Assembly (NCBI RefSeq): GCF_000147715.2
Contig: NC_017934.1
Span: 496,001 to 560,000 of the forward strand
Source of the DNA: Mesotoga prima MesG1.Ag.4.2
GTDB taxonomy: Bacteria > Thermotogota > Thermotogae > Petrotogales > Kosmotogaceae
DNA: 64,000 nt
Direction: 5' to 3'
In this document: in pieces, positions 3,894-6,133 of the stretch
Layout: each line of letters starts with the position of its first letter
Numbering within the stretch: position 1 is the first letter of the stretch
Position numbers and translations under genes: made by a program
Notes under the pieces: model-generated
Database searches by the model: none
Seen by the model: only the letters and a program-made list of their open reading frames with translations
What the model was told of the DNA's origin: nothing

Positions 3894-3919
3894 AACTCCC
3901 CCTGTTGGGGGAGTTTTTT
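3894..3919 (+). terminator. Intrinsic terminator of tRNA-Asn
   Basis: Nine-bp stem AACTCCCCC/GGGGGAGTT with loop TGTT, then a run of T. The stop codon of the convergent gene (3918-3920) lies at the end of the T-run. Confidence 0.92.
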
Positions 3920-4856
3920 ATATCCAGCTCTGTCCTGGGACCTTGGGAAAGAGTCTTGTTCTTGAAACGTTGTCTAGAGAACAGACATATCTTGTCAGTC
4001 TTTCGACACCAATTCCACAACCTGCAGTCGGAACAAGCTCTCCTCCTTCTGCGATATCCATGTACCATGAGAGTTCTTCAGGGTCGTTGCCTTTGAAACC
4101 CATTCTTTCAAGGATTCTCTGATGCTCCCATTCTCGTTCTCCTCCGGACAGAGTTTCACCAAATCCATGAGGAAGTATTAGATCCATATCCTTGAGTGTT
4201 CTCTTATCTTCCGACAACAAGTCATAGAATTCCCTCTCCCATATTGGGAAATCAATTAACCAAAACGGCTCGCTAAAACTGGCGGATAGTATCGTTTCAA
4301 AGTCTTTTCCATACTGTTCATAAGCGTCCATGAATTTCACCGTAGCAAAGGGTTTTGAAGGAATCGAAGGATCCGAGGAAAGAAAATCCATTTCTTCGCT
4401 GCAATTTCTCTTTACTGAAAGCATTACTGTAATTATGAGGTCTTCGATGAGAGACATTATTTGCTCTCTCTTTGCGTTCCGGATTTCAAGATCAATTTGA
4501 CTGAACTCAAAGAGATGTCTTCCTGAAAGTGCCTTTTCCGATGTTTCAAGTCTTACATTCGGAGAAACAATGAAGATCCTTTCGAATGATTTACACGCTA
4601 GTTGCTTGTGAAATATCATTGACTGCGTAAGGCGATACTCCTGATCGTAGTAAGTGAACCTTGTGGTGTGAACTTCGTGATTAAGTGGATCGGTGATCGG
4701 AGATACAATAGTAGGAAGTAGCTCGACAAAGTTCTTTCCCCTAAGAAAACTGCTTGCTTCTCCCAGAATTGCAGATTTTACTTTAACTGCCGACTTCACA
4801 ACCGGATCACTAAGGTGCTCCAACACTCTAGAACTGAGTCTCCCGATGCTTTCCAT
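3918..4856 (-). CDS. AsnRS-like class II synthetase core without anticodon domain; probable asparagine synthetase (archaeal AS-AR type)
   Basis: A 312-residue protein made only of a class II aminoacyl-tRNA synthetase catalytic core of the Asp/Asn subgroup. Motif 2 is SPNVRLE (Arg102, Glu104) followed by RHLFEFSQIDLEI; motif 3 is GCGIGVERL (Arg286). The N-terminal OB-fold that binds the anticodon in AspRS and AsnRS (usual length about 430) is absent. Archaeal proteins of this build make free asparagine from aspartate. The family assignment is firm; the reaction is an inference, strongly supported by the Asn-codon leader upstream. AAGGGGTGAG lies 3-4 nt before the ATG. Conversion to an amidated or tRNA-modifying function is an alternative. 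Confidence 0.82.
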   Translation of the reverse strand: MESIGRLSSRVLEHLSDPVVKSAVKVKSAILGEASSFLRGKNFVELLPTIVSPITDPLNHEVHTTRFTYYDQEYRLTQSMIFHKQLACKSFERIFIVSPNVRLETSEKALSGRHLFEFSQIDLEIRNAKREQIMSLIEDLIITVMLSVKRNCSEEMDFLSSDPSIPSKPFATVKFMDAYEQYGKDFETILSASFSEPFWLIDFPIWEREFYDLLSEDKRTLKDMDLILPHGFGETLSGGEREWEHQRILERMGFKGNDPEELSWYMDIAEGGELVPTAGCGIGVERLTRYVCSLDNVSRTRLFPKVPGQSWI

Positions 4857-4869
4857 TTTCTCACCCCTT

Positions 4870-4954
4870 CAAAAATTAAGGCCGATGGATAACCATCGGC
4901 CTTCTAATCTTTTTTGTTGAAACGCAAAGATTAACTGACCGATCCCGGCCAGTT
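4870..4954 (-). promoter_or_regulatory. Ribosome-mediated transcription attenuator (terminator, antiterminator, pause hairpin)
   Basis: Read on the minus strand. Segment 1 AACTGGCC (4947-4954) pairs with segment 2 GGTCAGTT (4933-4940). Segment 2, extended to TAATCTTT (4926-4933), pairs with segment 3: AAAGATTA (4905-4912) perfectly, plus a 7-bp ATCGGTC/GGCCGAT helix. Segment 3 AAGGCCGATGG (4893-4903) pairs with segment 4 CCATCGGCCTT (4878-4888) as a perfect 11-bp terminator followed by AATTTTTG. Segments 1:2, 2:3 and 3:4 are mutually exclusive. Segment 1 includes the third Asn codon of the leader peptide. The terminator ends 14 nt before the AsnRS-like start codon, so expression must come through it. 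Confidence 0.88.
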
Positions 4955-5002
4955 ATTATTAGAAAGTGCTATACTGTATGAAACTAAAATCAATCTTTCC
5001 AT
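4931..5002 (-). CDS. Asn-rich leader peptide of the asparagine synthetase attenuator
   Basis: A 23-codon frame beginning ATG at 5002 with an excellent ribosome site (AGGAGGAAGG, 2-3 nt spacing) and ending TAA at 4931-4933. The peptide is MERLILVSYSIALSNNN followed by WPGSVS. Residues 15-17 are three consecutive asparagines (AAT AAT AAC). The stop codon lies inside segment 2 of the attenuator. When charged tRNA-Asn is scarce, a ribosome stalled on the Asn codons would cover segment 1 and allow the antiterminator; when it is plentiful, the ribosome reaches the stop and frees the terminator. This is the logic of the his, trp and ilv leaders of enteric bacteria. Confidence 0.85.
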   Translation of the reverse strand: MERLILVSYSIALSNNNWPGSVS

Positions 5003-5024
5003 ATTCCTTCCTCCTGAATGATTC

Positions 5025-5053
5025 ATTCTACCATCTGCAAAGTAACACAGAAA
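5025..5053 (-). promoter_or_regulatory. Promoter of the Asn leader transcript
   Basis: On the minus strand, TAGAAT (5025-5030) lies 17 bp after TTTCTG (5048-5053). Transcription would start near 5018, just before the leader ribosome site at about 5005-5014. The -35 match is weak. Confidence 0.5.
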
Positions 5054-5119: not shown

Positions 5120-6133
5120 ATGAATATTATTCCAATTTTCGTTCCACATGAGGGTTGCAGAACGCGATGCATATTCTGTAATGAATACTCCGCCACTGGA
5201 GTCACTGGAGTTCCCGATGAGAAAGAGATCGTTTCCACTGTAGAGAAGTATCTTTCATTCTTTAGACATCCAGAGGATGTGGAGCTTGCATTTTATGGTG
5301 GCACATTTACCGGGTTTGGTAATCAGCAGAAGTACCTGGAGGTTGCAACTGAGTTCTTCAAAGCAGGTCAGATAAAGGGGATCAGATTCTCCACCTCTCC
5401 GGGGCTCATATCCGAGAGGTTAGTAGAGTATTTGAAACCTTATCCGGTAAACTTTATCGAGCTTGGAGTCCAGTCTTTTGATGATACTGTTCTGGAGAAA
5501 TCTAACAGAGACCACAACACCAGCGATGTTTATAAAGCAACTCACTTGTTGAATAGCAACGGAATCAAATTTGGCATTCACTTGATGACCGGGCTACCCG
5601 AAGACTCAGAGAGTAAGGACATTCACTCGACCAGAGAGGCTATCAGAGTAGGTGCCTCTTCCGTTAGGCTTCATCCTCTGGTGATTTTGAAGGGTTCTCT
5701 TCTTGAGAATGAATACAAACTTCGTAGATTTTCGCCTCTTGACCTCCAGGAGTCTATTGAGATTCTCTGGAAAATGTACCTTCTGCTCTCGACATCGAAT
5801 GTGAAGATAAACAGGATTGGTATCTGTCTGTATGGAAAGCAGATAGACAACGTGGTGGCCGGTCCATTTCACCCTGCGATTGGAGAACTCGTGCGTGATA
5901 GACTTTTCCTTGAAATCGTCAGGGCATTTTCCGGGGAAATGAAGAGAAACGAGCTAAGACTTCATAATAAATTCAAACCATTTTTCACAGGTCATAAGAA
6001 GGGAATTGTCGAGGAAGCCCGTAAGGAGGGGATTCTTATAGACTTCGCTCACGATGGTGAGGAAATCGATGTTTCTCTTTATATGAGACGGATCAAAGAA
6101 AGGGTTCTGGAGGGAGTTTATGCTGAGGCTTAA
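5120..6133 (+). CDS. Elp3/YhcC-like radical SAM protein
   Basis: A 337-residue protein with the radical SAM cluster motif C-x4-C-x2-C near the N-terminus (EGCRTRCIFCNEYS: ligands in CRTRCIFC) and the AFYGGTFTGF motif of Elp3-like radical SAM enzymes around residue 60. LGVQSFDD near residue 120 is also typical. Substrate unknown; relatives act on RNA or cofactors. In many Firmicutes and Thermotogae a gene of this type precedes smc, as here (14-nt overlap with smc). The ATG at 5120 is preferred because protein similarity starts there (MNIIPIFVPHEGC) and a promoter abuts it; a longer frame from 5018 has no ribosome site. Confidence 0.85.
   Translation: MNIIPIFVPHEGCRTRCIFCNEYSATGVTGVPDEKEIVSTVEKYLSFFRHPEDVELAFYGGTFTGFGNQQKYLEVATEFFKAGQIKGIRFSTSPGLISERLVEYLKPYPVNFIELGVQSFDDTVLEKSNRDHNTSDVYKATHLLNSNGIKFGIHLMTGLPEDSESKDIHSTREAIRVGASSVRLHPLVILKGSLLENEYKLRRFSPLDLQESIEILWKMYLLLSTSNVKINRIGICLYGKQIDNVVAGPFHPAIGELVRDRLFLEIVRAFSGEMKRNELRLHNKFKPFFTGHKKGIVEEARKEGILIDFAHDGEEIDVSLYMRRIKERVLEGVYAEA

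Follow-up and report, generated by a model that had tools for sequence, protein, structure and literature searches.

The gene for an asparagine synthetase related to asparaginyl-tRNA synthetase (AsnRS) in Mesotoga prima is preceded by a short open reading frame with consecutive Asn codons and by an intrinsic terminator. Does this leader sense charged tRNA-Asn and act as a ribosome-mediated transcription attenuator? Leader-peptide attenuation is known for other amino acids, as in the trp, his, leu, ilv, thr, and phe leaders of Proteobacteria, Actinobacteria, and some Firmicutes. T-boxes control Asn genes in Firmicutes, among them in some cases the gene for Asn tRNA ligase. A survey in 2008 detected no T-box in the Fusobacteria and Thermotogae genomes that it examined (PMC2494555). 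According to PMC2965389, leader peptides had been demonstrated only in Proteobacteria and Actinobacteria before its own report in bacilli. Asparagine is unmentioned in four surveys of attenuators or cis-acting RNAs (PMC1262725, PMC2965389, PMC3766115, and PMC8632094).

The window is the whole stretch of DNA analysed here, 64,000 nucleotides in length, and coordinates at the M. prima locus refer to it.

The Controlled Gene

The product of the gene, hereafter AS-AR, matches NF005054, the NCBIfam equivalog for AsnRS-like asparagine synthetase A (Table 1). Among proteins of solved structure, the best hit is the archaeal asparagine synthetase A 3p8t (E 3e-57). Pfam detects only tRNA-synt_2, the class II core, and the anticodon-binding domain is absent. 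The archaeal AS-AR of Pyrococcus (PDB 3p8t) shares the NF005054 match, the AsnRS catalytic core, and the lack of the anticodon-binding domain. The M. prima protein differs in being bacterial and is ~37-39% identical to its relatives from Thermoplasmata, whose genes have no Asn leader upstream. Two closer relatives, with protein identities of 94% and 82%, come from a Kosmotogaceae MAG and a Mesotoga sp. Judged from its sequence, AS-AR is a putative asparagine synthetase of the ammonia type.

A true AsnRS is encoded in the same genome (449 aa; TIGR00457, 466 bits), and through it free Asn can set the charging of tRNA-Asn. The genome also encodes GatB, so part of the Asn-tRNA could arise by transamidation, uncoupled from free Asn. 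Two asnB-like genes are present as well (L094; C1:171617-172375 and C1:181676-182443), one of them barely over the family cut-off. This marginal gene begins with MSG, not MCG, and the usual N-terminal glutaminase cysteine (Cys2) is therefore missing; its product could be an asparagine synthetase with a dead glutaminase, or could serve in some other role. Since asnB has no match in most other genomes of the order, AS-AR is the sole asparagine synthetase detected there.

Structure of the Leader

Leader, 1:2 hairpin, antiterminator, and terminator were all confirmed on the minus strand at 5033-4857 (Table 1). A preliminary description of this DNA had reported a 23-codon leader with a strong ribosome site and three consecutive Asn codons, found again here at 5014-4931, as well as an antiterminator of 8 bp plus 7 bp and a pre-emptor hairpin. 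The mutually exclusive pairings and the position of the leader stop in segment 2 are also as described there. The perfect 11-bp terminator was borne out, but not its distance of 14 nt from the structural gene: 21 nt separate the hairpin from the AS-AR start at 4856, and a count of 14 nt is obtained only when counting begins where the U-tract ends. Behind the U-tract lie a Shine-Dalgarno (SD) sequence and the AS-AR gene.

Table 1. Features of the AS-AR leader and gene of M. prima (positions in the window).
Feature	Position	Strand	Remarks
Extended -10 promoter element TGGTAGAAT	5025..5033	-	TGGTAnAAT kept in each of the 10 leaders aligned from the genus
Shine-Dalgarno GGAGG of leader ORF	5014-5010	-	Anti-SD duplex -10.3 kcal/mol
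Leader peptide ORF MERLILVSYSIALSNNNWPGSVS, then stop	5002-4931	-	23 codons; ATG 5002-5000, stop 4933-4931
Putative regulatory Asn codons AAU AAU AAC (N15-N17)	4960-4952	-	S14-N17 are the codons where a modelled ribosome forces the antiterminator
1:2 (pre-emptor) hairpin UAACUGGCCG/CGGUCAGUUA	4955-4946 with 4941-4932	-	10 bp, loop GGAU, -14.5 kcal/mol
Antiterminator helix, 7-bp part AUCGGUC/GGCCGAU	4943-4937 with 4901-4895	-	
Antiterminator helix, 8-bp part UAAUCUUU/AAAGAUUA	4933-4926 with 4912-4905	-	
Antiterminator 5' strand (segment 2), AUCGGUC + UAAUCUUU	4926..4943	-	Leader stop inside
Antiterminator 3' strand (segment 3), AAAGAUUA + GGCCGAU	4895..4912	-	Overlaps terminator 5' arm
Intrinsic terminator hairpin (segments 3:4) AAGGCCGAUGG/CCAUCGGCCUU	4878..4903	-	11 bp, -19.8 kcal/mol
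Terminator U-tract, U5	4871..4875	-	
AsnRS-like (AS-AR type) asparagine synthetase gene	3918..4856	-	312 aa; NF005054 370 bits, cut-off 309

Transcription is predicted to start around 5018. A second in-frame ATG lies upstream at 5026; because it overlaps the conserved -10 element, 5002 is likely to be the leader start. A radical SAM gene is encoded divergently on the plus strand at 5120-6133. The terminator thus sits between divergently transcribed genes and belongs to the AS-AR transcript only, not to the end of another transcript. The folded leader has a z of -4.9, and none of 200 shuffles is equally stable.

The pattern of SD, ATG, and Asn run was searched for in the 2.98-Mb genome. It matches five times, in frame at the AS-AR leader alone (frames judged by eye); the reversed-pattern control gives two matches. 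No second in-frame Asn leader was found in M. prima by this pattern search. Among 10 leaders of the genus, the leader ORF is free of indels and the spacer from the stop to the terminator contains them. The Asn run in the genus is often just two codons after Asp (DNN), and elsewhere it is NNN.

The anatomy of the element places it among the ribosome-mediated transcription attenuators. With the trp, his, leu, ilv, thr, and phe attenuators it shares an SD-led leader ORF, cognate codons, the 1:2, 2:3, and 3:4 helices, a U-tract terminator, and the stop codon in segment 2. The cognate codons, which are Asn, precede a gene for an asparagine synthetase. Unlike in those attenuators, the cognate amino acid is asparagine, the host belongs to Thermotogota, and the target is a synthetase derived from AsnRS.

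These features suggest the following mechanism. RNA polymerase would start near 5018, and a ribosome would begin the 23-codon leader. When Asn-tRNA is plentiful, the ribosome would reach the stop codon and cover segment 2, so that segment 3 could pair with segment 4 into the terminator and transcription would end near 4871. When Asn-tRNA is scarce, the ribosome would stall at AAU AAU AAC and cover segment 1. The 1:2 hairpin could then not form, segments 2 and 3 would pair, the terminator would be blocked, and the synthetase gene would be transcribed. If the leader is not translated, the 1:2 hairpin would compete with 2:3 and the terminator would be favored.

Conservation across Thermotogota

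AS-AR is present in five families of Thermotogota (f1, f2, f4, f7, and f11) and has no match in the remaining genomes searched, including those of f8. An SD-preceded leader with Asn codons and a terminator is found upstream of AS-AR at all 46 distinct loci analysed, which represent the five families. The Asn codons number 2-9 in a run at these loci, with the exception of L058 (Asn-Asp-Asn). The intrinsic terminator lies 11-40 nt past the leader stop at every one of them. The leader sequences are almost wholly different between loci, and the Asn codons, the position of the stop, and the mutually exclusive helices are kept. Examples from other AS-AR loci are MGRIITKFEKFILNNNNWPGSVG, MKNCPFNDLFLNNNNNNNNNWPIPVIFFV, MKTLKVLSTSKKVNNNNNTQRR, MLNIKFIKIENLNNNNNNNNIQRWCNAR, MSKFLNLISKINNNNNNNSIGIGRLG, and MAERNLWISIISELVNNNNNNGPGPVCP, each ending at a stop codon. 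At L015 the leader is ~700 nt upstream of AS-AR and has a long Asn run. The weakest runs are those of L058 (NDN) and of several species of the genus of M. prima (DNN). Two further loci outside the 46 agree, one in G023 (covariance model R2) and one in G102 (read directly); the contig-edge loci of G037 and G046 are outside the count.

Under a strict automatic rule (Asn run of at least three within 300 nt), 36 of 51 AS-AR ORFs pass. Among other ORFs 4 of 180 pass, all of them amtB loci preselected by a covariance model. No Asn leader of this kind is seen at the asnB and asnS loci examined.

One assembly (G007) contains two AS-AR copies, both with a leader (L029 and L042, on contigs C316 and C178); this pair is either a duplication or a case of mixed strains. 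At one locus of family f2 (L045; G023 C12:117741-118651), the AS-AR frame is broken by stops and the leader is intact. The broken frame is either a pseudogene or an assembly error.

A terminator with an alternative structure before an amino-acid gene is also the layout of T-boxes and riboswitches, and an RNA binding tRNA or a metabolite could work via the same terminator with the ORF untranslated. No T-box sequence had been seen in the preliminary description, and indeed the leader matches no Rfam family at the gathering score, and a permissive E adds nothing but sRNA noise below threshold. Identity with a T-box or a known riboswitch is rejected on this ground. What is conserved is codons, SD, and stop, not a fixed aptamer, and such an RNA would need a longer leader and one less variable between families. 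An RNA of this type, whether T-box or an unknown riboswitch, is very unlikely.

Folding of Leaders with a Ribosome

Each leader transcript was cut before segment 4 and folded with a ribosome footprint, assumed to be ~30 nt, masked. In this model, the number of segment 3 nucleotides paired to segment 2 is 14.8 on average with the ribosome at the first Asn and 1.3 with the ribosome at the stop. A switch to the antiterminator on the Asn codons, and not at the stop, is predicted for 45 of the 46 leaders. When the M. prima leader is scanned codon by codon, the full antiterminator (14 nt) is formed at S14, N15, N16, and N17 only; it falls to 2 nt at W18 and to 0 at the stop. The last codon that gives the antiterminator lies, as a median over the leaders, two codons after the last Asn. 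The attenuation logic proposed in the preliminary description is therefore supported at the sequence level: in the folding model, antitermination is forced by a ribosome located just where the Asn codons are.

For roughly half of the leaders, the RNA is predicted to pair 2:3 to the same extent without a ribosome as with a stalled one, which indicates that the 1:2 protector is weak there, part of f2 included. The state without translation may, as the model suggests, differ among lineages.

This tendency of ribosome-free RNA toward 2:3 fits another explanation, in which leader ORF and terminator are real, the signal is the general translation status or a cue other than Asn-tRNA, and the A+T-rich repeat of Asn codons is incidental. 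AAU accounts for 197 of the 267 leader Asn codons, and AAU repeats are cheap in A+T-rich genomes. However, the run is in frame with the SD and ATG at every locus, and the case in the M. prima genome is the single one in frame. It is missing from the asnB and asnS loci and from other ORFs. Moreover, the run is located at the boundary between the ON and OFF states, and Asn is also what the gene product is predicted to make. These facts make an incidental repeat unlikely, and sensing of tRNA-Asn is the preferred reading.

Compensatory Changes in the Helices

The arms of the 2:3 and 3:4 helices change in sequence between families, and the pairing persists. Covariation is almost absent inside the genus of M. 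prima because the core pairs are invariant there, and other families were therefore used. In family f2, the antiterminator has five pairs with 18 cells changed on both sides, and the terminator has five compensatory pairs with 19 cells (0 of 500 shuffles). The 1:2 hairpin of family f7 is 97.4% paired with six cells changed on both sides, and the terminator of this family also shows compensatory changes. Because shuffle counts overstate significance for related sequences, duplexes within loci and across families were compared as well: the mean for a leader's own 2:3 duplex is -16.2 kcal/mol, versus -10.1 for segments paired across families. A shuffle of segment 2 with free composition is weaker, with 20 of 46 loci at p<0.01, because G+C-rich arms pair by composition and the segment limits clip the helix in some loci (e.g., L028).

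The preliminary description had proposed to look in relatives for conserved Asn codons and alternative pairings. Both are kept in every analysable AS-AR leader of the five families, and the compensatory changes are seen in two families other than that of M. prima. These changes also bear on the idea that the terminator, which is very strong in M. prima, is constitutive and merely insulates or damps AS-AR. On that idea, all of segment 2 and the upstream half of segment 3 would not need to covary with the terminator arm, yet their pairing survives sequence change in two families, and nearly all leaders are predicted to switch. A terminator without switching is hardly credible. Taken together, the sequence elements, conservation, covariation, and predicted switching make it very likely that the leader is a ribosome-mediated transcription attenuator which senses charged tRNA-Asn and controls AS-AR.

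Related Leaders in Thermotogota

Relatives of the element were sought by covariance-model searches, and the loci were then read; each extra case comes from one genome or one genus. Three matches (L114, L116, and L130) were rejected as terminators behind ordinary genes with no Asn leader.

In L113:2343-2901 (minus strand; G100 C97:68873-68964), an Asn leader, MRKIWKAYNCYSISANAANNNWPGSACSMP (ending in ...ANAANNNWPGSACSMP and a stop), with a near-perfect antiterminator and a terminator stands directly before glnA, which encodes glutamine synthetase (TIGR00653, 590 bits). In five species of genus g11 (L118-L122, e.g., L122:400-690), the glutamate synthase small subunit has the Asn run NNNNNKQRR as its C-terminal tail (...YLISSNNNNNKQRRLKTL, then stop). 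This tail is beyond the end of the TIGR01317 profile and is followed by a terminator, amtB, and PII. It appears, from the arrangement of the sequence, to be an attenuator whose leader is the end of a normal enzyme.

A second attenuator of the f1 type with Asn codons (L112:420-800; G002 C1:791988-792079) precedes a conserved 589-aa gene with no Pfam match. Orthologues of this gene are directly downstream of AS-AR in G003-G005, so L112 may be a relic of the AS-AR operon.

Other amino acids are also represented. Before thrS in G037 and G036 (L126:460-650 and L127:460-650, respectively), there is a TTTT leader, MLKYKLSITTTTN(S/N)AGKRRCKF followed by a stop, with a terminator; it is a probable threonine attenuator. 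Before the gene for a non-discriminating AspRS (NF003483, 466 bits) in L128 (minus strand; G036 C222:34304-34382), there is a DDD leader, MSVLSFKKVDDDIIAP with its stop, and behind it a terminator. The search for AS-AR gave no match in this genome (G036). The leader is a possible Asp attenuator. A repertoire of Asn, Asp, and Thr attenuation is likely in Thermotogota.

It can be speculated that an ancient asparagine regulon of Thermotogota works by leader-peptide attenuation, and we lean slightly toward this view. AS-AR would be its core, joined in some lineages by glnA (L113) and by amtB via the gltD tail (L118-L122), with an Asp-codon leader before AspRS where AS-AR was not found (L128).

Discussion

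AS-AR of M. prima is very probably made only when asparagine is short. If so, transcriptional read-through would be governed by tRNA charging, as in the T-boxes on Asn genes of Firmicutes; the AS-AR leader differs from these in having no T-box. The cysS and aroF uORF candidates (PMC8632094) likewise have a leader ORF before an amino-acid or tRNA-ligase gene. They concern other amino acids and other phyla, and no Asn case is mentioned among them. The preliminary description knew of no Asn-sensing peptide attenuator in Thermotogota. In agreement with it, the open-access literature searched contains no relevant Asn-specific attenuator, which does not by itself prove priority. The preliminary description also took the leader as strong functional evidence that the AsnRS-like protein makes asparagine; the evidence is strong and circumstantial, short of proof.

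The element is a new specificity, asparagine, of ribosome-mediated transcription attenuation, in a phylum for which the literature searched describes no such attenuator; the response to the charging of tRNA-Asn is what we infer from the leader. Asparagine would thereby join the few amino acids to which leader-peptide attenuators respond, with the predicted mechanism kept over five families of Thermotogota. Regulatory evidence independently ties an enzyme derived from AsnRS to the supply of asparagine. The case of the gltD tail suggests that the end of a normal enzyme can serve as a leader peptide. The orthologous leaders, with 2-9 Asn codons and differing helices, are a natural series in which codon number and hairpin strength can be set against the sensitivity of attenuation.
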